A stretch of DNA of 51,749 nucleotides from Planctomyces sp. SH-PL62 (GTDB lineage: Bacteria > Planctomycetota > Planctomycetia > Planctomycetales > Planctomycetaceae), in NCBI GenBank assembly GCA_945905295.1, contig CAMDPX010000019.1, forward strand, positions 1-51,749, written 5' to 3'. The position numbers and the translations under genes are program-made. The number at the start of each line of letters is the position of its first letter. Position 1 is the stretch's first letter. This document shows positions 6,209 through 51,699 of this stretch, piece by piece. Below the pieces are notes generated by a model. It was not told the DNA's origin. It worked only from the letters and a program-made list of their open reading frames with translations, and did no database searches.

Positions 6209-6308
6209 CCCCTCCGAGCTTGTCTCGGTGGTTTCGGGCTTGTGCACTACGTACGTGTCTCGTTCGTAGTGCAAAGGCCAGCTTCCACCGAGGCAAGCTC
6301 GGTGGGGG
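6209..6308. repeat. REPIN-like palindrome, family A copy 1
   Basis: The left arm (6209-6250) and right arm (6266-6308) are inverted copies about 42 bases long with a few mismatches. Each arm contains its own small hairpin, CCACCGAG-GCAAG-CTCGGTGG in the right arm. CTAC (6247-6250) and GTAG (6266-6269) face each other across a short centre. It lies between the convergent ends of bioA and the minus-strand membrane protein and may also act as a bidirectional terminator. Two further copies are at 14623 and 15033. Confidence 0.85.
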
Positions 6309-6321
6309 TTGTGTCGATGGG

Positions 6322-7254
6322 TCACGAACGATCCAGCCAAGTGAAGTCCGGCGCGTCGGTGGTCTCCGACGGAAGAGCGTCGCGTCGGCGCGAACGTCTT
6401 CGGTAGATCATCTCAACGGTCACCCCGACGACAAGAAACGTCAGCAGAATTCCGATAGCCAAGTACGTCAGCGAGCCGCTGTATCCGGCAGGCCGCGGTG
6501 CGGGCGACTTGGGCTGAGACAACACGGTCAATGTTTTCGCCAACAACAGCGGAGCGGTGTGAAAGTCGTTCGCGGTCGCGTAGCTGTACCGCTTGAAGAA
6601 GTAGCCCGTGGCGCGGACGCGGAATGGCGGTTTCAAGTCGTCTCCTTGCGGAACGCCAGCCGGCAATTCAGTGAGTACCACGCGATACGGATTGAGACCC
6701 GAATCGGCGGTGAAGAGCCACGCTTCCAGCAACGTCGGCTCATCGGGCGCGGCGGCCATCGGAAGGCAACGGCGAATCTCTCCATCGATAGTCAGCAACT
6801 CGCCGCGATAGCGATCGGCTTGGAGCATCAGGACCGCGAACGGCACGTCGGCCTGCGCGCTCCGTTCGAGTTCGGCGAGCGGCATGTCGCGAACTCTTGC
6901 CAAGAGAGTGTCGTATGCGAGCTTCTCCGCCGCCGTGACGCCGAACGTGTTGTCGGTGACGGACGCGAGCAGCGACTTGTCGATCGGAGTTGCTTGCGAA
7001 CTCGAATCACCCACAACGCGCACGGCGTCGTCGCGCAGCGAAACGGACTCGGATTCGTGCGGTTCGTTCAGCAATCGCTTGAGCCGCCGCGCTTCTTCAG
7101 GCGTCCGGCCGGCCAGCACTGGATCGGGTTTGGGTTGCCGCACCTGCTTCAGCGACCACGACAGGATCAGCAGCGACGGCGCGAGCATCGCCCCCCAGAG
7201 AATCAATCTCCAATTCGGCGCGAGCGGCGGGCGGTCAGTATTTCCAAAACGCAT
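6322..7254 (-). CDS. Conserved membrane protein, paralogue of the gene at 9303
   Basis: Function unknown. The 310-residue protein has an N-terminal membrane segment (about residues 15-35) and a second near the C-terminus (about 262-285) followed by an Arg-rich tail, with a soluble domain of about 220 residues between. Its central part is clearly homologous to the plus-strand gene at 9303-10370: DMPLAELERSAQADVPF matches TRPFAELEKGAIRDVPY, DRYRGELLTIDGEIRR matches DLYRGQPMRIKLHVRR, and ELPAGVPQGDD and TGYFFKRYSY also align. The two homologues bracket the ExbB/ExbD genes, so a role as accessory subunits of that membrane machine is plausible but inferred. The gene is divergent from exbB across 119 bases that contain half of a family B palindrome. 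Confidence 0.8.
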   Translation of the reverse strand: MRFGNTDRPPLAPNWRLILWGAMLAPSLLILSWSLKQVRQPKPDPVLAGRTPEEARRLKRLLNEPHESESVSLRDDAVRVVGDSSSQATPIDKSLLASVTDNTFGVTAAEKLAYDTLLARVRDMPLAELERSAQADVPFAVLMLQADRYRGELLTIDGEIRRCLPMAAAPDEPTLLEAWLFTADSGLNPYRVVLTELPAGVPQGDDLKPPFRVRATGYFFKRYSYATANDFHTAPLLLAKTLTVLSQPKSPAPRPAGYSGSLTYLAIGILLTFLVVGVTVEMIYRRRSRRRDALPSETTDAPDFTWLDRS

Positions 7255-7264
7255 GGCGAAGATT

Positions 7265-7290
7265 GTAGCCGCGCTTCGCCGGAACGCGGG
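7265..7290. repeat. Half of a family B REP-like element
   Basis: GTAGCC followed by a hairpin (CGCGCTTC, loop, GGAACGCGG) matches one arm of the complete elements at 9225 and 16706. The inverted partner is absent, although a degraded CCCCCCGCGTTTCGCG stretch lies about 50 bases downstream. It sits in the divergent promoter region between the membrane protein and exbB. Confidence 0.65.
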
Positions 7291-7373
7291 TCACTCGCCC
7301 GTTTGAAAATCGAGCGTGTCGTCGTCACGATACCCCCCGCGTTTCGCGAGATTCCTCAACACGGAGTTTGCTC

Positions 7374-8216
7374 ATGCTGTCGAATGGGTTCGGGCGAGTG
7401 GCCTGGTGGGCCAAATGGCTGCTGCTGATCGGGGTTTTGTCGGCAGCCGGAACGGTGTTCTCGCAGGAAGAAGAAGCCGCGATGGATGAAGCGGAGAAGC
7501 CGGCCGCGAAAGCCGACGCCGGAGGGGCCGAAGGAGACGCCGCGAAACCAGAGGGCGAAACCGAACAGTCCATGTTGATGTGGCTCATCGAAACCTCCGG
7601 CCTCATCGGAGCGGTGATTCTCGTGATCTCGATCTTCTTCGTGCATCGCGTCGTGACGCTGTTCCTGGAATTTAAGCCGGAGCTGGTGTCCCCTCCCGAC
7701 CTGGTCGAGCAGATCGAAGCGCTCGTCGCGAAGCGAGATTTCAATGGCGTTTATCAGGCCGCCAAGAAGAGCGAATCGGCGTTGGGACAACTGCTGGTGG
7801 CCGGGATGACGGCGATGTCGTCCGGGCTGGGAGAAGCTCGCGAGGCGATGGACCGCACCGGGGAAGCGATCACAGTCCACATGGAAAAACGGATCAGCTT
7901 GCTGGCCGTCATCGGCTCGCTGGGCCCGATGATCGGCTTGCTGGGGACGCTGAAAGGGATGATCGGGGCCTTCAGCGCGATCGCTCTCTCCGGCACGCAA
8001 CTGAAGGCGAGCCAGGTGGCCGGCAACATCTCCGAAGCCCTCGTGCTGACGTTCGAGGGTGTCGCCATCTCGGTGCCGGCCATTTATCTCTTCGCCTTGT
8101 TCAAAGATCGAGTCGCCACTTTGACGGTGGATGTGCAAAACTTGTCGGACGAGTTGATTCGCAAGATGCACACGTCGGCTCAGGCCCGGACGGCACCACC
8201 ACCACCGCAGGCGTAG
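7374..8216 (+). CDS. exbB: MotA/TolQ/ExbB proton channel family protein
   Basis: The channel subunit of a TonB- or Tol-type energy transducer in the inner membrane; with ExbD it uses proton flow to drive a mechanical partner. The ATG at 7374 follows CGGAG by 8 bases, so it is preferred over the in-frame TTG at 7368 and gives 280 residues. An N-terminal signal-like segment ends near the SQEEEAA stretch and is followed by an acidic, Ala-rich linker (about residues 30-60). Membrane segments lie near residues 65-90, 175-200 and 220-245. SLGPMIGLLGTLKGMIGAF and ISEALVLTFEGVAISVPA are the conserved ExbB/TolQ pore segments. The extra N-terminal segment and linker are often seen in ExbB proteins of this phylum. 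It begins a three-gene unit with two exbD genes. The partner (TonB, Tol or other) is not in the window. Confidence 0.92.
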   Translation: MLSNGFGRVAWWAKWLLLIGVLSAAGTVFSQEEEAAMDEAEKPAAKADAGGAEGDAAKPEGETEQSMLMWLIETSGLIGAVILVISIFFVHRVVTLFLEFKPELVSPPDLVEQIEALVAKRDFNGVYQAAKKSESALGQLLVAGMTAMSSGLGEAREAMDRTGEAITVHMEKRISLLAVIGSLGPMIGLLGTLKGMIGAFSAIALSGTQLKASQVAGNISEALVLTFEGVAISVPAIYLFALFKDRVATLTVDVQNLSDELIRKMHTSAQARTAPPPPQA

Positions 8217-8240
8217 GACTGAATCGCAGGGAGATCGCCG

Positions 8241-8687
8241 ATGTCAGGAAGTCACTCCGAAACCGCCGAGCCTGACCTTACCCCCATGCTCGACATGGTG
8301 TTTCAGTTGGTCACCTTTTTCATGCTGGTGATCAACTTTAAGGGAGCGGCGTTGGATCAGGCGCTGCAACTCCCCGTGCTCGGTTCGGCCCGGCCATTGG
8401 AGTGGAAAGGGGAGTACGAACCGCTGGTCCTGAACATCGACGCCGATGGCCACATCAAGGTCTACGGAGCCGTGGTCGATCCAGAGAAACACATCGCTCG
8501 GGAAGCCAACGAACTAAAGGCTCAGTTGCGAGCCGCCGGACAACCCACCACGGGCGAGCTTCCCGTGCCGGTCGTCATGCGCTCCGACAAAGGGACGAAG
8601 TTTCATTTGGTCAATCGCGTCATCCAGCTCTGCCAAGAGAACGGCTATCAACAGTTTTCGCTGAGCGCCATGACTGGCAAGGAATAA
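8241..8687 (+). CDS. exbD: ExbD/TolR family biopolymer transport protein (first copy)
   Basis: A small single-span protein that works with ExbB; its membrane Asp takes part in proton transfer. The 148 residues carry the diagnostic EPDLTPMLDMVFQLVTFFML near the N-terminus, with Asp in the membrane segment, followed by a periplasmic domain. The ATG at 8241 is preceded by AGGGAG with good spacing. It follows exbB by 24 bases and is followed by the second exbD after a single base, which indicates tight co-translation. The two ExbD copies differ strongly outside the membrane segment and probably form a heteromeric complex. Confidence 0.92.
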   Translation: MSGSHSETAEPDLTPMLDMVFQLVTFFMLVINFKGAALDQALQLPVLGSARPLEWKGEYEPLVLNIDADGHIKVYGAVVDPEKHIAREANELKAQLRAAGQPTTGELPVPVVMRSDKGTKFHLVNRVIQLCQENGYQQFSLSAMTGKE

Positions 8688-8688
8688 C

Positions 8689-9207
8689 ATGAGCCGCCGT
8701 CGTCACCGCCGCAAGAACAAGAGTTCGGTCAAACTGAATGTGACCGCGATGCTCGACATGGCCTTCCAGCTTCTGGCATTTTTCATTCTGACGTTCCGCC
8801 CGATGCCGGTCGAAGGTCACTTGTCGCTGAACATGCCGCCGCCGGTTCCGCTGACGAACGTCGCGACCGAAGTGACCGCCGGCAAGGAAGGGAGCGGAAT
8901 CGCCCCGTTGCACGCGCTGCATTTGTTTGTCACCGCGACGGAGACCGGCGAGGTCGCCCAAGTCCGCTTAGAAAGCGCGATCCTGTCGTCGGGCCGGCTG
9001 ACGCCCGGAACTTTGGCCGGCATCGACCGCCGGCTCCAACCGCTGTTCGCGCGCGGCAACGCGATCTACGACCGCATCCAAATCGAAGTCGATCGTGACC
9101 TGCGCTACGAAGAACTCTTGAAGCTGGTCGATGTGTGTGCTCAACAAAAGATGCCCGATGGCAAATCGCTGGGCAAAGTCAGCTTCGTGGAAATGCGGCC
9201 GCGTTAG
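8689..9207 (+). CDS. exbD: ExbD/TolR family biopolymer transport protein (second copy)
   Basis: 172 residues with a basic N-terminus (SRRRHRRKNK) and the family motif KLNVTAMLDMAFQLLAFF, which contains the membrane Asp, then a periplasmic domain ending near SFVEMRPR. The ATG lies one base after the stop of the first exbD and uses an AAGGAA ribosome binding site inside that gene's end. Its periplasmic domain is longer than in the first copy. A family B palindrome follows the stop after 17 bases and separates this unit from the downstream membrane protein. Confidence 0.9.
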   Translation: MSRRRHRRKNKSSVKLNVTAMLDMAFQLLAFFILTFRPMPVEGHLSLNMPPPVPLTNVATEVTAGKEGSGIAPLHALHLFVTATETGEVAQVRLESAILSSGRLTPGTLAGIDRRLQPLFARGNAIYDRIQIEVDRDLRYEELLKLVDVCAQQKMPDGKSLGKVSFVEMRPR

Positions 9208-9224
9208 CTTGATGATTTGACTTT

Positions 9225-9292
9225 GTAGCCGCGTTCGCCAGAACGCGGGGAATGGAATCACGATTCACCCGCATTCTGGCGAATGCGGCTAC
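9225..9292. repeat. REPIN-like palindrome, family B copy (GTAG ... CTAC)
   Basis: It starts GTAGCCGCGTTCGCCAGAAC and ends with the inverted partner finishing GCGGCTAC. Each arm folds as a hairpin (CCGCGTTC-GCCA-GAACGCGG) immediately preceded by GTAG. An ATG at 9252 lies inside the element, which argues against that codon as the start of the next gene. Confidence 0.9.
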
Positions 9293-9302
9293 GAGACTAC
9301 TC

Positions 9303-10370
9303 ATGCGACGTCGCTTGGCACGTCCGTTTGGCAATACCGTCTCACACGCGCGAATCGTGTCGATGCTGATGGGACTGGCGGTGCTCGCCATGCTTTATCA
9401 GCGTGCCAAAGAGCCTCAGTTCTGGCGCTGGATGACCAACGAAAGCCGAGCCGATGCTGAAGACAACCAAACGAAGACATCCCCTCGTCCTGACGGAGTA
9501 AAGTCGCAGGCCAACGCCGCGAACACTTCCGAAAACATCGTCCCCGGCCCGAACGAAACCGATCCCGAAGAACTCGCCAAGCTGCGTTCCAACTTGAAGT
9601 CGATTCAAGATCGGCAACCATTGCAGCCGCACGAGATGCCGGCGTACTGGCGATTGCTCGGATGGAGCCGCACTCGACCGTTTGCGGAGTTGGAGAAGGG
9701 GGCGATCCGCGATGTGCCTTACTCGCACTTGTGGGAGGAGCCGGACCTGTATCGCGGTCAGCCGATGCGCATCAAGTTGCACGTCCGCCGAGTGCTTGCC
9801 TACGACGCCAAAGAGAATCCGCAGGGCTTAAAGAAGGTCTACGAAGTCTATGGCTTCACTGACAACTCGCTGTCGTCTCCGATTGTCGTCATCCTGCCAG
9901 AGAAGCCGCCCGGCGTACCGGTTGGGACCGATGTGGAAGGTGACATTGTCTTCGTCGGTTACTTCCTGAAATGGATGGGATACCGCTCCTTTGAAGATAA
10001 GAAGAAGAACGCACCGTTGCTCGTCGGCCGAGCCAGGCCGCCAGTTCGCTCCGCGGGGGCCGGGCAGACCGGCGGCTGGGAACTCGCGTTCTTGACGTTG
10101 GTCGGCGGAGTTTTCGCACTGACCTTTCTCGGCTGGTTCAGTCTCCGGTTGCTGCGTCGTCCACGTTCGGCCGCGGCCGGTGCCAACGTGATCGCTCCCG
10201 AACGGTTGCCCGACAATTGGATGTCCAACACCACTTCGGAAACGCGCAGCGAATTGACTTCATCAATTCCCGACATCGTCACTGTCACCCCCTTCCTCGC
10301 AGCGACGTCCACCGTGGAGGCTCCTGTCGTGAATCCGGCAACTCCTCCAGCCGCGTCCAGCACCACTTAA
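9303..10370 (+). CDS. Conserved membrane protein, paralogue of the gene at 6322
   Basis: Function unknown. An earlier in-frame ATG at 9252 lies inside the family B palindrome and would encode repeat-derived residues. The ATG at 9303, giving 355 residues and starting MRRRLARPFGN, is therefore preferred, though its ribosome binding site is weak. An N-terminal membrane segment (about residues 18-35) and another near residues 258-285 flank a soluble domain homologous to the minus-strand gene at 6322. Shared motifs include DLYRGQ, the VYGFTDNS region, ILPEKPPGVPVGTD and VGYFLKWMGY. The C-terminal tail is Ser/Thr/Pro-rich. The position downstream of exbD suggests association with the ExbB/ExbD machine (inference). 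Confidence 0.75.
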   Translation: MRRRLARPFGNTVSHARIVSMLMGLAVLAMLYQRAKEPQFWRWMTNESRADAEDNQTKTSPRPDGVKSQANAANTSENIVPGPNETDPEELAKLRSNLKSIQDRQPLQPHEMPAYWRLLGWSRTRPFAELEKGAIRDVPYSHLWEEPDLYRGQPMRIKLHVRRVLAYDAKENPQGLKKVYEVYGFTDNSLSSPIVVILPEKPPGVPVGTDVEGDIVFVGYFLKWMGYRSFEDKKKNAPLLVGRARPPVRSAGAGQTGGWELAFLTLVGGVFALTFLGWFSLRLLRRPRSAAAGANVIAPERLPDNWMSNTTSETRSELTSSIPDIVTVTPFLAATSTVEAPVVNPATPPAASSTT

Positions 10371-10391
10371 CGCGACTGCGCACGATCGCTC

Positions 10392-10443
10392 GTAGTGACC
10401 CGATTGATCGGGTCGGTCTCGACCCCATCAATGGGGTCACTAC
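10392..10443. repeat. REPIN-like palindrome (GTAGTGACC ... GGTCACTAC)
   Basis: Two inverted arms, each itself a hairpin: GACCCGAT-TG-ATCGGGTC on the left and GACCCCAT-CA-ATGGGGTC on the right. GTAG opens and CTAC closes the element. The arms differ by compensated changes, so the hairpins are preserved while the sequence drifts. The rest of the 10371-10650 spacer shows no gene I can support. Confidence 0.85.
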
Positions 10444-10650
10444 AAGCAACGGTGTGCAGTCAGGGGTCAAGCGCAACGTGCGTCGTGCGTCCAAGAGTGC
10501 CCGCCCTGCGACTTCCTCTTGCTGCACTTAGCCGGACGGGATATCAACCCGCCCTCTTCTTAATTCCCCTCGCTGATCCTGCCTGCCTTTCGCGGTCCAT
10601 TCGTTTCCGAGTGAGCCGTCTCTCCCCCTCGCAATCTGATCTCCCAGACC

Positions 10651-11340
10651 ATGAATTGTTCCGTCGATCCGAAATGGATGTCGGTTCGTTGCCGCGCTGG
10701 CGCGACAATCGCCTTGTTGGCGATCTTCAGCAGCGTTGCCGGCTGCTCGTTGGGAGTCATGGCGGGCCGCGCGATCTTCGGCGATCCGAAGCAGGCTTCC
10801 GAGTTTCACGCGCGCACCGGCGTTGACCTGACCAAGACCGAAAAGAAATTGCTGGTCGTGGTGCGGACACCGCAAGCGATCGAGGGGGACATGCCGTCGC
10901 TCGATGTGGATCTGATCGACACGATTTCACGGCGGCTGAAGCTGCATGGCGTGCAGGTCGTGGACCCGGATCTCGTCGCCAAGTGGATCGATCAGAATGG
11001 CGGGCGGTTCGATCATCCCACCGAACTGGCGCGGGAGTTCGACACCAGCTACATCGCGGTCATCGATATCGACACCTTCAGCCTGCACGACGCGAGCAGC
11101 CCCAACCTGTTTCACGGCACGGCGGCCGGTCAGATGCAAGTCTTTGAGGTTCAAGACGTCGCCGGCTCGAAAGAAGCTCTGCAAGTCTTCGGCGGAAACT
11201 TCCGCAATAACTACCCGCCGCATGGTCCCGTGCCGGCGGATTCGCTCTCTCCCAAGATGTTTCAGAAACGCTTCGTCGACAACCTGAGCGACCGGCTCGG
11301 CAGCCGCTTCTACGACTTCCGCATGGGCGACGAAATGTGA
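10651..11340 (+). CDS. Putative lipoprotein (first of a tandem pair)
   Basis: 229 residues with an N-terminal hydrophobic stretch ending in the lipobox-like SSVAGC, so probably exported and lipidated. An internal ATG at 10678 (MSVRCRAG) would give a more typical 23-residue signal peptide. The mature part is mixed alpha/beta and is homologous to the next gene: GVQVVDPDLVAKWIDQNGG aligns with KVKVVNPDRVRAWLDENAD, and SYIAVIDIDTFSL aligns with KYVVYIDLESFNL. The family was not recognised with certainty; the fold suggests a periplasmic or outer-membrane accessory protein of the CsgG/GNA1162 kind, a weak guess. Its stop lies five bases before a repeat element. Confidence 0.75.
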   Translation: MNCSVDPKWMSVRCRAGATIALLAIFSSVAGCSLGVMAGRAIFGDPKQASEFHARTGVDLTKTEKKLLVVVRTPQAIEGDMPSLDVDLIDTISRRLKLHGVQVVDPDLVAKWIDQNGGRFDHPTELAREFDTSYIAVIDIDTFSLHDASSPNLFHGTAAGQMQVFEVQDVAGSKEALQVFGGNFRNNYPPHGPVPADSLSPKMFQKRFVDNLSDRLGSRFYDFRMGDEM

Positions 11341-11345
11341 GTTGG

Positions 11346-11483
11346 AAAACTCGAAATCCGAAAACTCAAGATCCGAATGGCAAGCCGATCATGAACACTC
11401 CGCAATCTCAAATCGCTGATCCGCGAATGCGTTCGCAGCGTTCCCTGTTCGGATTTTGGATTTCGAGTTTCGGATTTCGGATT
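11346..11483. repeat. AT-richer inverted repeat overlapping the start of the next gene
   Basis: AAACTCGAAATCC near 11347 and its inverted copy GGATTTCGAGTTT near 11457 form the core. The flanking motif ATCCGAA / TTCGGAT is repeated several times in both arms. The sequence type, with short iterated 'GAAATCCGAAA' units, is unlike the G+C-rich palindromes nearby. The right arm is translated as part of the signal peptide of the second lipoprotein (LFGFWISSFGFRI). Confidence 0.7.
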
Positions 11484-12122
11484 TGTGTCCTCATGCTGTT
11501 GCCGCTGGCACTGACCGGCTGCTTGAAGCCACTGATCTTCTGGGGCTACCTGCTGGGCGGGCCACCTTCCATTGAGCCAGACTTCGACATCATGACCAAG
11601 AAGTCGATGACGGCGAAGGACGTCTCTGTTGCGGTCGTCTGCTACGCGCCGTTGGAGGTTAAGTACGACTTCTCCGCCATCGACCATGAACTGGCCAAGT
11701 ATCTGACCTTTCGACTGGTCCAGCACAAGGTGAAGGTCGTCAACCCGGACCGAGTCCGCGCGTGGCTGGACGAGAACGCCGACAACTGGGACGAGCCCTC
11801 CGAAATCGGCAAAGCTCTCGGCGTGAAGTACGTCGTCTACATCGACCTCGAAAGTTTCAATCTCTGGGAAGAGAACAGCCACAATCTCTACCGCGGCCAT
11901 GCCGAAGGGGTCGTCAGCGTGTTCGAGATCGACGCGGACGGTGAAGGAGAGAAGATCTACACGAAGGAAATCACCTCGCGATTCCCAACCATCGCCCCGC
12001 GAGCTTCCACCGAAGTCCCCTACGCGACGTTCAAGCAGCAATACCTCTCGCGTCTCAGCGAGGAAATCGGCCGCCTGTTCTACGAACGGTACAGCGGCGA
12101 CGACATTCCCGACGCGACATAG
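11391..12122 (+). CDS. Putative lipoprotein (second of a tandem pair)
   Basis: 243 residues if started at the ATG at 11391; ATGs at 11430 (MRSQRSLFGF) and 11494 are alternatives, and none has a strong ribosome binding site. The hydrophobic stretch VLMLLPLALTGC carries a lipobox, so membrane anchoring is expected. The rest is a paralogue of the preceding gene: SFNLWEENSHNLYRGHAEG aligns with TFSLHDASSPNLFHGTAAG. Both end in a short helical segment with a SRFYDF/GRLFYER motif. The signal region is encoded within the right arm of a repeat element, which suggests that the original 5' end was replaced or extended by repeat sequence. Function unknown. Confidence 0.72.
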   Translation: MNTPQSQIADPRMRSQRSLFGFWISSFGFRICVLMLLPLALTGCLKPLIFWGYLLGGPPSIEPDFDIMTKKSMTAKDVSVAVVCYAPLEVKYDFSAIDHELAKYLTFRLVQHKVKVVNPDRVRAWLDENADNWDEPSEIGKALGVKYVVYIDLESFNLWEENSHNLYRGHAEGVVSVFEIDADGEGEKIYTKEITSRFPTIAPRASTEVPYATFKQQYLSRLSEEIGRLFYERYSGDDIPDAT

Positions 12123-12145
12123 TCGCAAAGGCGGCGAGTCACGGA

Positions 12146-12244
12146 GAGGCTGTGAATTTTTCGTGGAGCACGTTTTCAACGTGCTCGAAAACAGCCCGAT
12201 TAGGCACGTTGAAAACGTGCCCCACGCCATTCATTCACAGCCTC
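12146..12244. repeat. Long palindrome with nested hairpins
   Basis: Outer arms GAGGCTGTGAA and TTCACAGCCTC enclose inner arms that are hairpins themselves: GAGCACGTT-TTC-AACGTGCTC and GGCACGTT-GAA-AACGTGCC. It follows the second lipoprotein stop by 23 bases and could end its transcription. No GTAG is present. Confidence 0.85.
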
Positions 12245-12274
12245 GGAGTGAATCGTCTGCTTTGTTCGGCTGAT

Positions 12275-12350
12275 CCGTGCTCCGGCTTTGCCATCCGTGC
12301 GGAAACAAACCGCAAGAAAAGGCCGCACGGATGGCAAAGCCGGAGCACGG
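12275..12350. repeat. Long palindrome (CCGTGCTCCGGC ... GCCGGAGCACGG)
   Basis: Nearly perfect inverted arms of about 28-30 bases (12275-12303 and 12322-12350) are separated by an A-rich centre. The transcript would form a very stable stem. It lies directly after the previous palindrome, so this spacer has two unrelated elements in tandem. Confidence 0.85.
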
Positions 12351-12652
12351 GTCAAAACCCGAAGCGCGCTGTCGAATCTCTACCACGGACATGCTCTTCG
12401 CATCCGTCGGCCTACGCGCAAACCAACCTGCCACTCCCGGCGACTCTTCGGCGTGGCGAGCAATGATGCCAAATCGCCACACGCCCGACGGACCTGTGGC
12501 GGGAAGCGATGACTTCGTGAAGGTTCCGAGCGGGCAAATTGACTCGGCACGTGCATGGTCTAAGTTTCTGGCACAAATCTGAACCGTCGTTGCGGAGTCC
12601 CCGAACGGCAAATCGGTTCGGCTTCCTTCCAGACGATTTTGAGGCCACGAGC
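12351..12652. other. Spacer upstream of the amidotransferase gene
   Basis: About 300 bases with no gene I can support. The asnB frame is open back to 12539, but the Cys-2 rule for this enzyme family fixes the start at 12653. A weak promoter-like pair, TTGACT at 12539 and TAAGTT about 16 bases later, is visible; the second box matches the consensus poorly. Confidence 0.4.
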
Positions 12653-14608: not shown

Positions 14609-14622
14609 TCAATCTTCCCTCA

Positions 14623-14727
14623 CCCCACCGAGCTTGTCTCGGTGGCTCGCGGGCCTTTGCACTACTGGCCCGGTCGATGTTCGCGTAGTGCAGAAGCCTG
14701 GAACCACCGAGGCAAGCTCGGTGGGGG
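14623..14727. repeat. REPIN-like palindrome, family A copy 2
   Basis: The left arm (14623-14665) ends CACTAC and the right arm (14685-14727) begins GTAGTGC. Each arm carries the CCACCGAG-CTCGGTGG hairpin with a five-base loop. It lies between asnB and the carrier-protein gene, and its end is 33 bases before that start codon. Confidence 0.9.
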
Positions 14728-14759
14728 CAGTTCAAAAACAAAAGAAGGACCAACTCAAC

Positions 14760-15017
14760 ATGCCGACGATTGAAGCTGACGTTCGTGGATTCGTGACCGA
14801 CAACTTTCTCTTTGGCCGCAAGAACGTGTCGCTCGCCGGCGACGACTCGCTGCTGGAGCAAGGTCTGATCGACTCGACCGGAGTGCTCGAATTGGTCTCG
14901 TTCATCGAGAACAAATTCGAGATCAAAGTCGAAGACGACGACCTCGTGCCAGACAACCTGGACTCGATCAACCGCCTGATCGCGTTCATCGAGAACAAAC
15001 TGGAAGAAGCGAAGTAA
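14760..15017 (+). CDS. Acyl carrier protein
   Basis: An 85-residue acidic protein of normal ACP size. It would hold an acyl or aminoacyl group as a thioester on a 4'-phosphopantetheine arm. The attachment site is Ser39 in GLIDSTGVLELV, at the start of helix II; the motif is DS-T rather than the DSL of fatty-acid ACPs, which points to a specialised carrier. The ATG at 14760 follows AGAAGGA by eight bases. The upstream in-frame extension is palindrome sequence and is discounted. The next gene is an AMP-forming ligase that could load it. The pair lies between two family A palindromes. Confidence 0.9.
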   Translation: MPTIEADVRGFVTDNFLFGRKNVSLAGDDSLLEQGLIDSTGVLELVSFIENKFEIKVEDDDLVPDNLDSINRLIAFIENKLEEAK

Positions 15018-15032
15018 CCCAGTCATCACAAA

Positions 15033-15138
15033 CCCCACCGGGCTTGCCCCGGTGGCTCGCGGGCCTTTGCACTACTTTGTTCGACACTCAATCGAGTAGT
15101 GCAAAAGCCCGTAAACCACCGAGACAAGCTCGGTGGGG
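15033..15138. repeat. REPIN-like palindrome, family A copy 3
   Basis: The left arm starts CCCCACCGGGCTTGCCCCGG and runs to CACTAC (15075). The right arm runs from GTAG (15096) to the end at 15138. In the left arm both strands of the small hairpin differ from copies 1 and 2 in a compensated way (CCACCGGG with CCCGGTGG), so pairing is kept. It separates the carrier-protein and ligase genes. Confidence 0.9.
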
Positions 15139-15153
15139 TGGAGAACATCGACG

Positions 15154-16698
15154 ATGCAACTCGAACAATTTCTTGAACAAACGGCCGTGCGGATGCCGGA
15201 TAAGGTCGCGCTCATTTGCGACAACCGACGAGTGACTTATCGCGAAATCGAGACCGAAGCGAATCAGGTCGCTCACGGCCTGATCGCGAAGGGCGTGCAG
15301 CGCGGCGATCGGGTCGTTCTGTTTCTCGACAACAGCGTCGAGGCCGCGATTGGCGTCTGGGCCGTGCTCAAGGCTGGGGCCGTGTTCGTCATGGCGAACC
15401 CGACCACGAAACCGGACAAGCTCACGTATTTGCTCAACAACTCGCGGGCGTCTTGCATCATCGCTCAAAGCAAGCGGCTGCGGGGCTATGAAGCGATGTG
15501 GGCGGAAACTCCGCATCTGCAAAACGTGATCGTCGTCGGCAGGACCGAAGAGGTCGCCGACTGCACGCATCCGCTGACGAGTTGGGCCGATCTCGTCGCA
15601 GCAAACCAAGACAACACACAGCCTCCGAAGAAACGGTGCATCGACGTCGATCTGGCCGCGCTGGTTTACACATCCGGCTCAACGGGCAATCCCAAAGGGG
15701 TGATGCTGACGCACGCGAACATGGTCGCGGCCAACAAGTCGATCACTACCTATCTGCGGAATACACCCGATGACATCGTCTTGAACGTCCTCCCGCTGAG
15801 CTTCGATTACGGGCTGTATCAATGGCTGATGTGCTGCAATTACGGCGGCACGCTGGTGCTCGAAAAGTCGTTCACTTACCCGCACGCGATTCTCGACAAG
15901 ATCGTGAAGCTGGGGGTCACCGGATTCCCGATCGTGCCGACGGTCGTGGCGATCCTGCTGCAAATGGATCTGACGAAGTACGACCTGTCGAAGTTGCGGT
16001 ACTTCAGCAATACCGGAGCCGCCTTCCCAGTCGAGTACATTTTGAAGCTGCGAAAGCTGCTGCCCGATGTGACGATCTTCTCGATGTTCGGTCTGACCGA
16101 ATGCAAGCGAGTCAGTTATCTGCCTCCCGAGGAGATTGACCGCCGCACCAGTTCGGTGGGCAAAGCGATGCCCAACTGCGAGACGATGATCCTCGACGAC
16201 GACGGCCATGAACTCGGCCCGAACGAAGTGGGCGAGTTGGTTGTTCGCGGCTCGAACGTGATGAAGGGTTATTGGGAAGCTCCTGAGCTGACGGCGATCC
16301 GATTGAAGCCGGGCAAGATCCCGCACGAGATGTGGCTCTACACCGGCGACTTGTTCCGCTCGGACGAAGAAGGTTTTCTGTATTGGGTCGGTCGCAAGGA
16401 CGACATCATCAAGAGCCGCGGCGAGAAGGTCAGTCCGCGCGAAGTCGAAGACGTCCTGCATCAACATCCGCAGATTGCCGAGGCGGCCGTCGTCGGAGTC
16501 GATGACGCAATGCTCGGCCAAGCCGTGCGAGCCATCGTGCGACTGCAACCGGGTGCCGAGTTGACCGTCCGCGACGTTCAGGCTCACTGCCGCAGCTTCC
16601 TCGAAGATTTCATGGTGCCTCAACAAGTCGAGTTCCGCGACGCTCTGCCGAAGACGCCGAACGGAAAGATCGACAAGAAGATTCTGGTTCACGGGTAA
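15154..16698 (+). CDS. AMP-forming acyl-CoA/acyl-ACP ligase
   Basis: A cytoplasmic enzyme of the ANL superfamily, 514 residues, that activates a carboxylate with ATP and transfers it to CoA or, more likely here, to the adjacent carrier protein. Motifs run in order: YTSGSTGNPKGVMLTH (about residues 172-187) for ATP binding, FGLTECKRVSYL, YTGDLFRSDEEGFLYWVGR with the ribose-binding Asp, DDIIKSRGEKVSPREVED, and the C-terminal catalytic Lys in PNGKIDKK. The ATG at 15154 lies just beyond the palindrome; an earlier GTG at 15133 lies inside it and is discounted. The gene follows the carrier protein, as in the acyl-ligase/ACP pairs of PEP-CTERM and exopolysaccharide loci. The substrate cannot be read from the sequence. 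Confidence 0.92.
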   Translation: MQLEQFLEQTAVRMPDKVALICDNRRVTYREIETEANQVAHGLIAKGVQRGDRVVLFLDNSVEAAIGVWAVLKAGAVFVMANPTTKPDKLTYLLNNSRASCIIAQSKRLRGYEAMWAETPHLQNVIVVGRTEEVADCTHPLTSWADLVAANQDNTQPPKKRCIDVDLAALVYTSGSTGNPKGVMLTHANMVAANKSITTYLRNTPDDIVLNVLPLSFDYGLYQWLMCCNYGGTLVLEKSFTYPHAILDKIVKLGVTGFPIVPTVVAILLQMDLTKYDLSKLRYFSNTGAAFPVEYILKLRKLLPDVTIFSMFGLTECKRVSYLPPEEIDRRTSSVGKAMPNCETMILDDDGHELGPNEVGELVVRGSNVMKGYWEAPELTAIRLKPGKIPHEMWLYTGDLFRSDEEGFLYWVGRKDDIIKSRGEKVSPREVEDVLHQHPQIAEAAVVGVDDAMLGQAVRAIVRLQPGAELTVRDVQAHCRSFLEDFMVPQQVEFRDALPKTPNGKIDKKILVHG

Positions 16699-16705
16699 TC
16701 GCAAC

Positions 16706-16775
16706 GTAGCCGCGTTTCGCCAGAACGCGGGCATTCACGAACATCGCCCCCCGCGTTCTGGCGAAACGCGGCTAC
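16706..16775. repeat. REPIN-like palindrome, family B copy (GTAG ... CTAC)
   Basis: GTAGCCGCGTTTCGCCAGAA opens and its inverted copy ending GCGGCTAC closes the element. The two hairpins match those at 9225. It begins seven bases after the ligase stop and ends ten bases before the next start codon, so it fills nearly the whole spacer. Confidence 0.92.
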
Positions 16776-16785
16776 GGACAAACTC

Positions 16786-17775
16786 ATGACAACTGCGACT
16801 TCCGTTTTCTCTCGTCACCTGCTGAAACTCGATGCCGCTGCCGAGGTCGCTCGCATTTGCGACTGGATGCGTGAGACGGTGGCGGTGGACTTCAAACGTA
16901 AGGGCCTCGTGCTCGGCCTGTCGGGCGGGATTGATTCGACCGTCTGCGCCGCGCTGGCCGTGAAAGCGTTCGGACCGAACCGAGTTTTCGGAATCATGAT
17001 GCCCGAACGGGATTCCGAAGCCGACAGCCTCGCGCTGGGTGAACTGCTGGCGGAATCGCTGGGCCTGGAATCCACGATCGAAAACATCACTCCCATGCTC
17101 GATGGAGCCGGCTGCTATCAGCGTCGCGACGCCGCGATTCAATCGGTGATCCCGGAGTATCAGCCGGATTGGAAAAACAAACTCGTGCTGCCACCGCTTC
17201 TCGCTGGAGCACGCTTCAGCCTGTCGAGCATTGTCGTGCAATCCCCCAGCGGCGAACGCAAGCAGGCTCGGCTGACACTCGACGCCTATCAGACAATCGT
17301 CGCCGCAACCAATTTCAAACAGCGCTGCCGAAAGATGATGGAGTACTACCACGCGGATCGGCTCCGCTACGCCGTGATCGGGACTCCGAATCGGCTGGAA
17401 TACGACCAGGGTTTCTTTGTGAAGCAAGGGGACGGCGCGGCCGACATCAAGCCGATTGCTCACCTTTACAAGACGCAGGTCTATCAGTTGGCCGATTACC
17501 TCGGCGTCCCCGAAGTGATTCGGATGCGACCGCCGACGACCGACACGTACTCGCTCCCTCAGAGCCAGGAAGAATTCTTCTTCAGCGTGCCGTACGACAA
17601 GCTCGACTGCTGCCTGTTCGGTTTGAATCACGGCTTCGATGCGGCCGAGGTCGCGGCCGAGATTGGGTTAGGCGTTGAGCAAGTGCGATTCGTCTACAAC
17701 GACATCGTGTCGAAGCGCAAGGCGACCGATTATCTACATCGCTCGCCGGAGTTGATTGAGAACGTGCTGCCTTAG
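16786..17775 (+). CDS. NAD(+) synthase-like ATP-pyrophosphatase
   Basis: 329 residues, related to ammonia-dependent NadE, which amidates nicotinate adenine dinucleotide. LGLSGGIDSTV (about residues 44-54) is the PP-loop. GTPNRLEYDQGFFVKQGDGA and DIKPIAHLYKTQV match the NadE core. It departs from ordinary NadE in three ways. It is about 50 residues longer, with an insertion around residues 110-165. The usual F-T-K-Y-G-D-G is FVKQGDG. The substrate-loop region reads PTTDTYSLPQSQEE. It sits in a run with an asparagine-synthase-type enzyme, a carrier protein and an acyl ligase. It may therefore amidate a pathway intermediate, perhaps with ammonia from the neighbouring amidotransferase (inference). 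A true nadE remains possible. Confidence 0.8.
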   Translation: MTTATSVFSRHLLKLDAAAEVARICDWMRETVAVDFKRKGLVLGLSGGIDSTVCAALAVKAFGPNRVFGIMMPERDSEADSLALGELLAESLGLESTIENITPMLDGAGCYQRRDAAIQSVIPEYQPDWKNKLVLPPLLAGARFSLSSIVVQSPSGERKQARLTLDAYQTIVAATNFKQRCRKMMEYYHADRLRYAVIGTPNRLEYDQGFFVKQGDGAADIKPIAHLYKTQVYQLADYLGVPEVIRMRPPTTDTYSLPQSQEEFFFSVPYDKLDCCLFGLNHGFDAAEVAAEIGLGVEQVRFVYNDIVSKRKATDYLHRSPELIENVLP

Positions 17776-17793
17776 TGATTCGTTTGGCCGAAC

Positions 17794-17816
17794 GCCGTCG
17801 GCCGAAAACCGACGGC
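17794..17816. repeat. Short hairpin GCCGTCGG ... CCGACGGC
   Basis: An eight-base perfect stem with a seven-base CCGAAAA loop. A second pairing, GGCCGA...TCGGCC, overlaps it. It lies between the NAD-synthase-like gene and the GNAT gene. It is smaller than the other elements and has no GTAG. Confidence 0.7.
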
Positions 17817-17841
17817 CGTGATTGCAAACCTGAAAAGTGAC

Positions 17842-18870
17842 ATGCCCACTCTCGCACCATCGACAACCTGGCGAATCACTCAACCGACGGTTGCCGAACT
17901 GCGCGAGCCGCTGCTGGCGCTCTGGCATCGCAACTTGCCGGGTGCGTCGCGGGATCGCTTCGAGTGGCTGTACGGAACCGGCCGGGCGGAGGCGTTGTTG
18001 TTGGGCGAGCGGCCCGTCATCGGGTCGGCGGGACTGATGCGGCGGCGATTCTCCATCGCGGGCGAGTTGACCGAAGGGGGCGCGGCGATCGACTTGAATG
18101 TCGATGAGCAGCAGCGGTCAGTTGGGCCCGCGATGACGTTGGCTCGCGCGGTCATGAAGCTTGCGGATGAAAACGGCGGCTCATGCTTGTATGGCTTTCC
18201 GATCCCGCGCGCGGCCGGAGTCTTGAAACGCTGCGGTTATCGACAGCTCGGCGAAGTCTCGAACTGGACGAGGCTGTTGCGGAGCGAAGCCAAACTGCGA
18301 ACCGTTCTGAAATCATCGCTGGCTGCGAAGCTGGCCGCTCCGCTGGTGGATGCCGCGCTGCGTTGGAAGTCGCCGGAGCGTGCGTGGCGACTGCCGCGGC
18401 AGGTCGTGGTCGAAACTCCGACAACCTTTGACGAGCGATTCAATCGGCTGTGGCGGACAGCGGCTCAGCGATTCGGTGTGCTCGGTGAACGCTCGGCGGA
18501 TTATCTGAGGTGGCGATTCTCGAAGTGCCCCGAACTGAAGTACGCGTGCTTCGCTCTGACAGGACGCGGCTGCGGTGAGTTGCTGGGTTACATCGTCTGG
18601 TATCGCTCGGACGAGTCGATCTGCATCGCCGATTTACTGGCGGTCGATGACGCGGCGACCGAGTTGCTGCTGGCAGAGTTCACTCGGCAAGCTCGCCGGC
18701 TGCGAGCGGACGCGATTCGGCTGGCATGCTTTGCCGCGCCGCGGTTCTATGAGCAGCTCGAGGCAGCCGGCTACTCGCGACGGCAGGATTCGTATCCGGT
18801 TCTCGTGCGGATGCCCGAGACCGTCACTGACTGGTATCTGACAATGGCGGACCACGACACCGATGTGTAG
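17842..18870 (+). CDS. GNAT-type acyltransferase-like protein
   Basis: 342 residues from the ATG at 17842; an in-frame GTG at 17818 overlaps the hairpin region and is less likely. The N-terminal half (about residues 10-150) looks like a GNAT domain, with an AIDLNVDEQQRSVGPAMTL strand-turn-helix and GVLKRCGYRQLGEV typical of the domain's end. The C-terminal half (about 190-320) looks like a second, more degenerate copy, beginning SADYLRWRFSKCPE. Such two-domain GNAT/FemAB-like proteins occur in exopolysaccharide and PEP-CTERM loci next to acyl ligases, where they are assumed to transfer acyl or aminoacyl groups. The TAG stop codon is part of the GTAG that opens the next palindrome. Confidence 0.7.
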   Translation: MPTLAPSTTWRITQPTVAELREPLLALWHRNLPGASRDRFEWLYGTGRAEALLLGERPVIGSAGLMRRRFSIAGELTEGGAAIDLNVDEQQRSVGPAMTLARAVMKLADENGGSCLYGFPIPRAAGVLKRCGYRQLGEVSNWTRLLRSEAKLRTVLKSSLAAKLAAPLVDAALRWKSPERAWRLPRQVVVETPTTFDERFNRLWRTAAQRFGVLGERSADYLRWRFSKCPELKYACFALTGRGCGELLGYIVWYRSDESICIADLLAVDDAATELLLAEFTRQARRLRADAIRLACFAAPRFYEQLEAAGYSRRQDSYPVLVRMPETVTDWYLTMADHDTDV

Positions 18871-18947
18871 GTCAGCCTTTCCAGGCTGACCCGTCCGGAC
18901 AGCCGACCGTATCACACCTCGGAGTCAGCCTGGAAAGGCTGACCTAC
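18867..18947. repeat. REPIN-like palindrome (GTAGGTCAGCC ... GGCTGACCTAC)
   Basis: The left unit is GTAG followed by hairpin GTCAGCC-TTTCCA-GGCTGAC; the right unit is its inverted copy ending CTAC at 18947. The element contains the stop codon of the upstream gene and ends three bases before the start codon of the deacetylase gene. Any ribosome binding site of that gene (GGAAAGG at 18932-18938) lies in its right arm. Confidence 0.92.
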
Positions 18948-18950
18948 AGC

Positions 18951-19940
18951 ATGGTTTCCAAGCGAGATTTGTTGGCTCACACGCTGGACGCGACCGGTTG
19001 CGCTCGCGTGTTGCGAGCCGCGCGGCCGTGGAATGGCGTCTTGATTTGGAACTACCACCGAATCGGTGACGCGGCCGGTTCGTTGTTCGATCCGCATCTC
19101 TTCAGCGCGACGGCGGAGGACTTCGATCGGCAAGTGACGTTTCTCAAGCAGAACTTCGATGTGATCGGCCTGAACGATTTGGATCAGGCCCTGACTCAGT
19201 CGCGCGGCCAATTCGTGATGCTGACGTTCGACGATGGCTACCGCGACAACTTTGAGTTGGCCTTTCCGATCCTGAAATCGCACGGCGTCTCTGCGACGTT
19301 CTTCATCGCCACGGGATTCCTCGATCGTCCGCGTATGCCGGTGTGGGATGAACTCGCCTGGATGTTGCGGACAACCTCTGTGAAGTCGCTGGCGGCGAAC
19401 GAATGGCTGCCGACGTCCGTGTGTCTCGCCGATCAACCTTTCCGGCGGCTGTTGGCCGTTTACAAATCGCTGGGGACGGAATTGACCGAGATGTATCGCG
19501 ACTTCCTCGCGGACGCGCTGGGAACCGGCCGCTGCCCGGAATCATTGGCCAGCGATCAATGGATGACGTGGGACATGCTGCGCGAGATGCAAGCTGGCGG
19601 CATGAGCTTCGGCGGTCACACGGTCAATCATCCGATTCTGGCCAACGCCACGGCGGACCAGCAGGACTGGGAAGTCGGCGAGTGCCAGCGGCGACTGATC
19701 GACGAACTCGGTCGCCCGATCGACGCCTTCAGTTATCCCAACGGCAAGCGCGGCGACTTCAACGAACTCACGCGCGCGGCGTTACGAAGCCACGGCTATC
19801 GCTGGGCCTTCAGCTACAGCGGCGGTCACTGCCACCCCGGCCATCGGGACCATTTCGATCTGCCCCGCACGGCGGTCGAGACTGACATCGACTTGCCGCT
19901 CTTCCGTGCGAAAGCCACGCTACCGCAGCTCTTCTCTTAA
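18951..19940 (+). CDS. Polysaccharide deacetylase (NodB-fold, carbohydrate esterase 4)
   Basis: 329 residues. Enzymes of this family remove N- or O-acetyl groups from surface polysaccharide with a bound metal. LIWNYHRIGD near residue 27 starts the fold. LTFDDGYRDNFE near residue 92 contains the catalytic and metal-binding Asp pair. SFGGHTVNHPILAN holds the metal-binding His residues, and DAFSYPNGKRGDF is a later conserved motif. It resembles the deacetylases of PEP-CTERM/exopolysaccharide loci, which are often cytoplasmic or lack clear signal peptides; none is visible here. The start codon lies three bases after a palindrome whose arm includes the only ribosome-binding-like sequence. It is the last gene of the amidotransferase/carrier-protein run. 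Confidence 0.9.
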   Translation: MVSKRDLLAHTLDATGCARVLRAARPWNGVLIWNYHRIGDAAGSLFDPHLFSATAEDFDRQVTFLKQNFDVIGLNDLDQALTQSRGQFVMLTFDDGYRDNFELAFPILKSHGVSATFFIATGFLDRPRMPVWDELAWMLRTTSVKSLAANEWLPTSVCLADQPFRRLLAVYKSLGTELTEMYRDFLADALGTGRCPESLASDQWMTWDMLREMQAGGMSFGGHTVNHPILANATADQQDWEVGECQRRLIDELGRPIDAFSYPNGKRGDFNELTRAALRSHGYRWAFSYSGGHCHPGHRDHFDLPRTAVETDIDLPLFRAKATLPQLFS

Positions 19941-19996
19941 GTCAGGCGAGCGGGACGGCGTCCACAGGGAGCGAGATAAGAATTCCTGGCAGATAT

Positions 19997-20059
19997 CAGC
20001 CGGAACGCGCTAGCGTCCGGTTCGAGCCGTTACGAACCGGGGCTAGCGCCCAGCGGCTG
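19997..20059. repeat. Palindrome, family C copy 1 (GCTAGC core)
   Basis: CAGCCGGAACGCGCTAGCG on the left is inverted as CGCTAGCCCCGG/GCCCAGCGGCTG on the right. Each arm forms a small stem around GCTA, and the centre reads CCGGTTCG...CGAACCGG. The same family occurs at 48813. It lies 56 bases after the deacetylase stop. Confidence 0.82.
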
Positions 20060-20150
20060 ATTGAGTTGCCAGTCACCAGGATTTGCGCCATGTTGCCGGT
20101 GATTGGCCGCGGATTCTCGTTGAGCTCCCCTCGCGCGGCCACCAATGAAA

Positions 20151-20226
20151 CCGGCGAGCGGGGTGGCGTCAGCCCCCCGATTGATTGGCGACCTCACCGG
20201 GGGGCTGACGCCCCCCCGCTCGCCGG
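20151..20226. repeat. Palindrome (CCGGCGAGCGGGG ... CCCCGCTCGCCGG)
   Basis: Inverted arms of about 29 bases flank a 17-base centre. Each arm contains a hairpin such as GGGGGGC-TGAC-GCCCCCC. With the element at 19997 it occupies much of the 314-base spacer 19941-20254, in which no gene is supported. It ends 28 bases before the ABC gene. Confidence 0.85.
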
Positions 20227-31282: not shown

Positions 31283-31345
31283 GTAGCCTGACTCTCCGAG
31301 TCGGGCACTCTGCGAAAAAATGCCCGACTCGGAGAGTCAGGCTAC
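31283..31345. repeat. REPIN-like palindrome (GTAGCCTGAC ... GTCAGGCTAC)
   Basis: Perfect inverted arms of about 24 bases flank a 15-base centre with an A run. Each arm is GTAG plus hairpin CCTGACTC-TCC-GAGTCGGG. It is the only such element inside the minus-strand glycan operon and lies between gmd and the exporter gene, ten bases after the gmd stop. Confidence 0.93.
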
Positions 31346-48812: not shown

Positions 48813-48870
48813 CAGCCGCAGGGCGCTAGCCCCGGTTTGTGTTATCCGAACCGGGGCTAGCGCCCGCTGG
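48813..48870. repeat. Palindrome, family C copy 2 (GCTAGC core)
   Basis: CAGCCGCAGGGCGCTAGCCC on the left is inverted as GGGGCTAGCGCCCGCTGG on the right, the same family as 19997-20059. The central part reads CCCCGGTTTG...CCGAACCGGGG. It lies between the CorA and glucosidase genes. Confidence 0.87.
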
Positions 48871-51672: not shown

Positions 51673-51699
51673 CGAGGAACGGGGTCGGGAGTCTTTTTC

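Follow-up and report, generated by a model that had tools for sequence, protein, structure and literature searches.

Repetitive extragenic palindromic (REP) elements that carry GTAG at the foot of an imperfect hairpin, together with their REP-associated tyrosine transposases (RAYTs), are the closest described relatives of the sequences studied here. The available text of one survey (PMC3733652) places GTAG REPs in bacteria of the Planctomycetes-Verrucomicrobia-Chlamydiae (PVC) group, with several families coexisting in one organism (R. baltica among them), and describes TIRYT genes with GGGGWSAS repeats, REPtrons that are specific for their repeat, GTAG as a source of stop codons and, for some families, doublets with the foot inside (TT). 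The accessible part of a second study (PMC8266576) covers the use of GTAG by RAYTs, with cleavage at CT. Here we analyzed a 51,749-nucleotide contig of Planctomyces sp. SH-PL62 (CAMDPX010000019.1, positions 1 to 51,749; "the window"; contig C19 of a draft assembly that totals 8,603,566 bases in 476 contigs), in which palindromes between genes had been proposed to represent several families of inverted REP pairs (REPINs), each perhaps with its own RAYT. This original prediction was partly supported and holds in large part, and no outcome named beforehand as refuting it was seen. Classical GTAG REPINs, a known kind, are represented by families B, E, F and G; families D and J are REP-like without GTAG, and K and M were left unassigned. 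Taken as a whole, the palindromes are probably non-autonomous REP elements of Y1 transposases with the histidine-hydrophobic-histidine (HUH) motif, and family A a distinct kind whose two-domain ("double-Y1") putative transposase would most likely have a composite active site.

Inverted repeats were collected if their arms reached 16 nt, mismatches did not exceed 12% and the span was no more than 160. At this strict threshold the window contained 12, compared with none in 19 of 20 dinucleotide-preserving shuffles of the window and one in the remaining shuffle. The count of at least 17 proposed earlier depends on the threshold, but all of the elements named do exist: the total approaches 17 once the 6209 pair (arms 81% complementary), the half copy at 7265, the nested pair at 12126/12264 and the half terminal inverted repeat at 51681 are included. 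Their location in gene spacers agreed with the open reading frame (ORF) list and the sequence when judged by eye. Also present were the outer GTAG with CTAC at the far end (9225, 16706, 18867, 10392 and 31283), the GTAG of the half copy at 7265 and the inner-end GTAG of each of the three family A copies. We also ran the same finder on an 851,749-base sample, which joins the window to the initial 20 kb of each of 40 large contigs and is not a random draw. It returned 266 inverted repeats, which formed 23 clusters with at least three members, 12 pairs and 29 singletons; the window is therefore typical of its own genome. Members of the families are alike over 20–25 nt and occur in tens to hundreds of copies. 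The family B unit, for example, was found at 163 places genome-wide with at most three mismatches versus none in a reversed control, so the arms are far from unique, and the sample held 24 units of B, 33 of E, 27 of F and 27 of G.

The GTAG signature extended to the genome, as predicted. GTAG near the left end with CTAC near the right end, found in 58 of the 266 inverted repeats, was the commonest shared tetramer, followed by AGCC (46 of 266), which is partly nested in GTAGCC. A count of hairpins lying directly 3′ of each of the 256 tetramers, made over 420 kb of the sample without reference to inverted pairs, placed GTAG first (102 of 1039 occurrences, 4.15 times the mean), and the second-ranked foot, CGTA (2.25 times), overlaps it. 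The orientation of the foot within doublets was fixed by family: outside in B (11 of 11), E (15 of 15), C (12 of 12), F (13 of 13), G (7 of 8), H (2 of 2) and I (3 of 4), and inside in A (13 of 13) and in family L, which does not occur in the window (9 of 11). Where both sides of a stem had changed, the changes were complementary in 29 of 29 cases in B, 13 of 13 in F, 32 of 32 in G, 11 of 12 in A and 3 of 3 in E, while one-sided changes numbered 2, 8, 7, 22 and 22, respectively, all of these being counts of copies and not of events. Because the two-sided changes are complementary, the hairpin is the conserved entity, most clearly in B, F and G.

Y1 transposases are encoded in this genome: PF01797 identifies 13 genes at E≤0.001, and the RAYT model NF047646 has 11 matches. 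We examined 61 Y1 loci, comprising 16 from the genome itself and 45 of 81 matches in congeners, for genes flanked on each side, at a distance of up to 900 nt, by one of 15 probe families. The search proposed earlier for Y1 genes between matching hairpins succeeded at 14 of the 61 loci, versus 0.32% of 5000 random intervals, a null drawn from the sample of this genome while most of the loci are from congeners. Pairs within the genome were family T1 with L007, H with L010, C with L011 and L012, A with L013, G with L114, and J with L064, a weak Y1 match; in congeners H flanked L104 and L113, F flanked L116, L117 and L134, and D flanked L110 and L136. No Y1 gene flanked on both sides by family B, E, K or M was found among the 61 loci. 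The suggestion of one RAYT per family thus stands for G and, in congeners, for F and D, stands weakly for J, and found no counterpart for B, E, K and M.

These results compare well with GTAG REPs and REPINs, with which the window shares the GTAG foot, imperfect hairpins, inverted doublets, high copy number, intergenic location and, for some families, a repeat-flanked cognate Y1 gene. Families B, E, F and G have the 5′ GTAG foot, high copy number and inverted doublets, and among the 61 loci a cognate RAYT flanked by the same REP was found for F and G, but not for B and E. Families D, J, K and M differ in lacking GTAG. The palindromes of the window can be described as short hairpins with a guide foot, mostly arranged as inverted doublets in spacers. 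Cognate Y1 HUH transposases, whose genes would lie elsewhere in this genome or in a related one, probably mobilize them as folded single-stranded DNA. We infer both the mobilization itself and, for families B, E, K and M, that the genes were lost or escaped detection. It is possible, though somewhat doubtful, that B and E are instead moved in trans by the RAYT of another family. Such sharing would fit the absence of either family from both sides of any of the 61 Y1 loci, the fact that L114 and L010, both RAYTs of this genome, have GTAG-foot repeats too, and the cross-activity of E. coli TnpAREP on other REPs reported in the accessible part of PMC8266576; set against it, the loci cover 45 of the 81 congener matches, and a draft in 476 contigs may break at repeats. 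That the palindromes are ordinary host elements, such as intrinsic terminators or RNA-stability hairpins with no link to transposases, is highly improbable. They do lie in spacers, several of them in operon-like strings of genes, and REPs have been proposed to act as RNA elements (PMC3733652, in the text available). However, a sequence of 20–25 nt is common to tens to hundreds of copies, foot and doublet orientation are kept, and Y1 genes with one of these families on each side are much more frequent than in the null. The idea that terminators explain everything was rejected because the families are repeated and tied to Y1 genes; a host role acquired after insertion is compatible with all of this.

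Family A is not a standard REPIN. In all 13 doublets its GTAG points inwards, in contrast to the outside foot of the GTAG REPINs, and it stands ∼20 nt away from the main hairpin, and its gene, L013, encodes a two-domain Y1 protein in which the tyrosine precedes the HUH motif. Family A flanks L013 on both sides, a second, weak Y1 match lies in the same frame, and the protein scores 22.1 bits against NF047646, for which the cut-off is 80. The stop codon of L013 is the TAG of the downstream GTAG, and its last 23 residues are read from the family A unit. Truncation by a REP insertion was considered and rejected: homologues without the unit end soon after the same GEY motif, so the short C-terminal half is not an insertion artefact. 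At the L013 locus (1-2490), the double-Y1 gene precedes a gene that we take to encode a type I restriction subunit, and family A units occupy both spacers.

Double-Y1 homologues were present in 4 of 59 relatives, this genome included, and in at least 4 of 392 genomes of the phylum at E≤1e-15, again including this one, when six candidates per genome were scored. A contig search yielded 26 loci, several identical in sequence to those among the 59 relatives; one, L073 (JAPLNX010000246, 'Planctomycetia bacterium'), matches the protein of congener G001 with 100% identity over 284 residues. By record title these loci belong to planctomycetes (19), Puniceicoccaceae (1), 'Verrucomicrobia' (1), Lentisphaerae (1), Kiritimatiellae (2) and Acidobacteria (1), with one unnamed. 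We aligned 18 of the 26, leaving out L083 (no clean frame), L087, L093 and L096 (contig end), L095 (partial), and L090, L097 and L098 (stops). The proteins are ∼260–285 residues long, and PF01797 matches all 18. Invariant in the alignment are D71, G72, K106, G107, R108, L109, G131, Y141, Q145, L172, H188, D231, H232, P245, N254 and Y278, and H234 is kept in 17 of 18. The N-terminal half carries a catalytic-type tyrosine (Y141) and glutamine (Q145) and in all 18 lacks HUH at the place of that motif, whereas the C-terminal half keeps HUH and ends shortly after a [GS][ED]Y motif, ahead of the place of the tyrosine helix; no further tyrosine occurs in any of the 18 aligned C-terminal tails. The set that marks the Y1 superfamily (Y1 fold, HUH, tyrosine and a metal-ligand glutamine or asparagine four residues after it) is present in L013 but spread over two halves, and the split is kept across metagenome-assembled genomes (MAGs) of the PVC group and Acidobacteria, down to 28% identity. 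This arrangement suggests, from conserved residues, one composite active site per chain, in which the HUH of the C-terminal half would act with the tyrosine and glutamine of the N-terminal half as a single-chain counterpart of the IS200/IS605 dimer.

The hairpins around double-Y1 genes share a typical form, an 8-bp stem with a 4–5-nt loop reading (N)C[AG]AG. Allowing at most one stem mismatch, 96 such hairpins lay within 400 nt of the genes (4.8/kb) versus 20 elsewhere in the loci (0.23/kb), and they stood on both sides in 16 of the 22 loci that have >300 nt on each side (27 loci examined). When perfect hairpins of 8 bp and 5 nt were collected without regard to the loop in 26 loci, 58 of 66 near the genes, with 20 different stems, had the (N)C[AG]AG loop, as did 9 of 14 elsewhere. 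Of 94 units, 44 (in 13 of the 22 loci with units) had the tetramer [GC]TAG at a distance of 15–24 nt on the 5′ side of the hairpin, compared with 10 of 94 in a reversed control. Such hairpins were rare at 60 other Y1 loci: a search within 700 nt found them on both sides of one locus and on at least one side of eight, two of these eight being family A units. At the sole locus with both sides, the GTAG is on the opposite strand. All of L099-L101, which were found by protein only, have hairpins, on both sides in two, one effectively with 7-bp stems. Family A is present in 179 copies in this genome and 368 in G001, and the stem of L078 in 490 copies in G060, but G059 has 8 copies and G061 has 2, every one of these at the gene. 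We propose that the double-Y1 protein would recognize the 8-bp hairpin with its (N)C[AG]AG loop and might be guided by [GC]TAG ∼20 nt 5′ of it, a role suggested by conservation alone. L129 of congener G010 is a Y1 match with a TAG inside its open frame and hairpins CCGACCC-ACAAG-GGGTCGG on both sides, and its single called GTAG hairpin reads from the opposite strand.

Several observations weigh against this interpretation. The fold match of the N-terminal half spans model residues 13-104 and ends ahead of the tyrosine helix, which was modelled at low confidence when this half was taken alone; the two halves compared with each other gave a weak score (11.6%); and L076 has DHLP in place of HUH. 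Hairpins are missing on one or both sides in 6 of the 22 complete loci, three of them broken genes (none within 400 nt in L081, L082 and L098, and one side only in L089, L090 and L097), and the perfect 8-bp hairpins of L074 have other loops. In both A (22 vs 12) and E (22 vs 3) one-sided stem changes outnumber two-sided ones. Family A hairpins occurred in all 11 congeners searched, the double-Y1 gene in 2; copy number does not simply track the gene, since there are 49 units in G010, which has genes, and 62 in G005, which has none. Congeners with family A and no gene may have lost it, it may have escaped detection in draft assemblies, or the repeats may be able to persist on their own. The invariant Y278 could be an alternative nucleophile, which leads to a reading in which the C-terminal half acts alone and the N-terminal half is a DNA-binding or structural domain. 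Y278 is indeed kept in 18 of 18 and follows HUH in the same half, but in the fold match the chain, which ends at residue 284, reaches only to about residue 130 of ISDra2 TnpA; the catalytic tyrosine there is residue 132, and Y278 therefore falls ∼8–10 residues short of that place; moreover, the N-terminal half retains a tyrosine and the glutamine four residues later, which are nucleophile and metal ligand according to the accessible part of PMC6006769. We regard this reading as unlikely. Slightly less likely still, the protein would be a relic that has degenerated and lost activity, or would serve purely in DNA binding and lie in REP-rich spacers by chance: loss of the second histidine in one member, the stops in L090, L097 and L098 and the small number of genomes with the gene would suit it, but the split catalytic residues persist over the phylogenetic range and identity given above, and the hairpins retain complementary stems and a largely constant loop.

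Domain number and motif order set the double-Y1 proteins apart from the described classes. Both halves share the fold of IS200/IS605 TnpA and of TnpAY1 subclass 1.2, and the tyrosine motif Y---Q of that subclass is found in the family, with --HH in part of it (PMC6006769 Table 1, in the portion available). However, those proteins are single domains of ∼150 residues with HUH before the tyrosine, and IS200/IS605 TnpA acts as a dimer, whereas the double-Y1 chain has two domains, the tyrosine before HUH, and no second HUH or tyrosine helix. RAYTs and TnpAREP likewise have a single Y1 core with HUH and then tyrosine, unlike L013, in which the tyrosine is only in the N-terminal half and HUH only in the C-terminal half. 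TnpAY1 class 3, as far as the available text of PMC6006769 describes it, is similarly rare, found in Planctomycetes and Acidobacteria and flanked by repeated secondary structures, but its proteins have a median of 178 residues, the motifs NHVH, W[TA] and YV[VI][AENY]EQ and the foot CnGA; the double-Y1 proteins have the tyrosine before HUH, DH-u-H, and the foot [GC]TAG in about half of the units. Assignment of L013 to class 3 was rejected on motif order, length and foot. No description of a Y1 protein with the tyrosine before HUH on two fused domains was found in the open-licence literature searched, and the double-Y1 family is apparently undescribed. We lean towards the view that family A and its relatives form a new class of hairpin-directed single-stranded DNA transposases in planctomycetes and related phyla, in which a natural single-chain heterodimer with one active site would read a constant (N)C[AG]AG loop on freely varying 8-bp stems and give rise to foot-inside REP doublets.

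The repeats of the window are part of a very diverse REP population in a genome with more than 10 Y1 genes, which makes the genus a good place to test the co-evolution of REP hairpins and transposases. Most of the finding is a rich case of a known phenomenon, and the family A transposase is the new part. If the composite site works, this protein would represent a naturally occurring form of the IS200/IS605 dimer with a single site, and it would become testable whether single-strand transposition needs one active site or two and why hosts keep RAYT-like enzymes. A constant loop with changing stems would be a simple, checkable recognition rule.

Other Y1 genes of this genome have repeats of their own. 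L001-L004 are four single-domain genes with the Y---Q--HH motif of subclass 1.2, which in the available account generally lacks IS-type structures; private palindrome arrays lie beside them, on both sides only at L004, and the main array units were not found in the 852-kb sample. GGGGTC-type repeats accompany L006, L008 and L009, and a related terminal repeat L005. L008 and L009, with GGGGTCGGGT repeats, resemble TIRYT genes and TnpAY1 subclass 2.1 in their GGGGTC inverted repeats and C-terminal DnaA-like domain (PMC3733652 and PMC6006769, in the parts available), and TIRYT-like elements lie outside the window save for one T1 unit at 51681. L011 and L012 encode 269-residue Y1 proteins with a long segment ahead of HUH and family C flanks (GTAGGTTGGGAC).

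Table 1. Palindromic elements of the window, in order of position.
Element	Position	Strand	Ends and remarks
Family A doublet	6209..6307		GTAG inside (CTAC/GTAG); 8-bp hairpins outside, (N)CAAG loop; one mismatch in left stem
Family B single REP unit, half copy	7265..7290	+	GTAG and hairpin
Family B REPIN	9225..9292		GTAG...CTAC outer; unit at 163 places in genome
Family G REPIN	10392..10443		GTAG...CTAC outer; cognate RAYT L114, own genome
Family D doublet	12162..12226		Without GTAG, foot CGTGG; D-flanked Y1 genes L110 and L136 in two congeners
Family K palindrome	12271..12354		Without GTAG
Family A doublet	14623..14726		GTAG inside
Family A doublet	15032..15139		GTAG inside; complementary stem change between hairpins, CCACCGGG..CCCGGTGG vs CCACCGAG..CTCGGTGG
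Family B REPIN	16706..16775		GTAG...CTAC outer
Family F REPIN	18867..18947		GTAG...CTAC outer; F-flanked RAYTs L116, L117 and L134 in three congeners
Family J doublet	20151..20226		Without GTAG; 55 units in sample; J-flanked weak Y1 match L064, own genome
Family E REPIN	31283..31345		GTAG...CTAC outer; 33 units in sample
Family M palindrome, GCTAGC type	48821..48865		Without GTAG; sample cluster of 10
Terminal inverted repeat family T1, one unit (GGGGTCGGGAGTC)	51681..51699	+	T1 flanks TIRYT-like gene L007

The family K palindrome is the sole element of its kind in the 852-kb sample at up to four mismatches and forms a loose cluster with four others through shared 11-mers, and the GTAG of the 18867 element is the source of the stop codon of the preceding ORF. 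Rfam at gathering thresholds gave no match in the window, and ARAGORN found no tRNA there. AT-rich boxes with CGAAATCCGAAA in both orientations lie at 11347-11484 and are unlike the REP families. Between 37160 and 39124, repeats with a period of ∼27 nt encode GGDGND-like motifs, which we presume to resemble calcium-binding RTX repeats.

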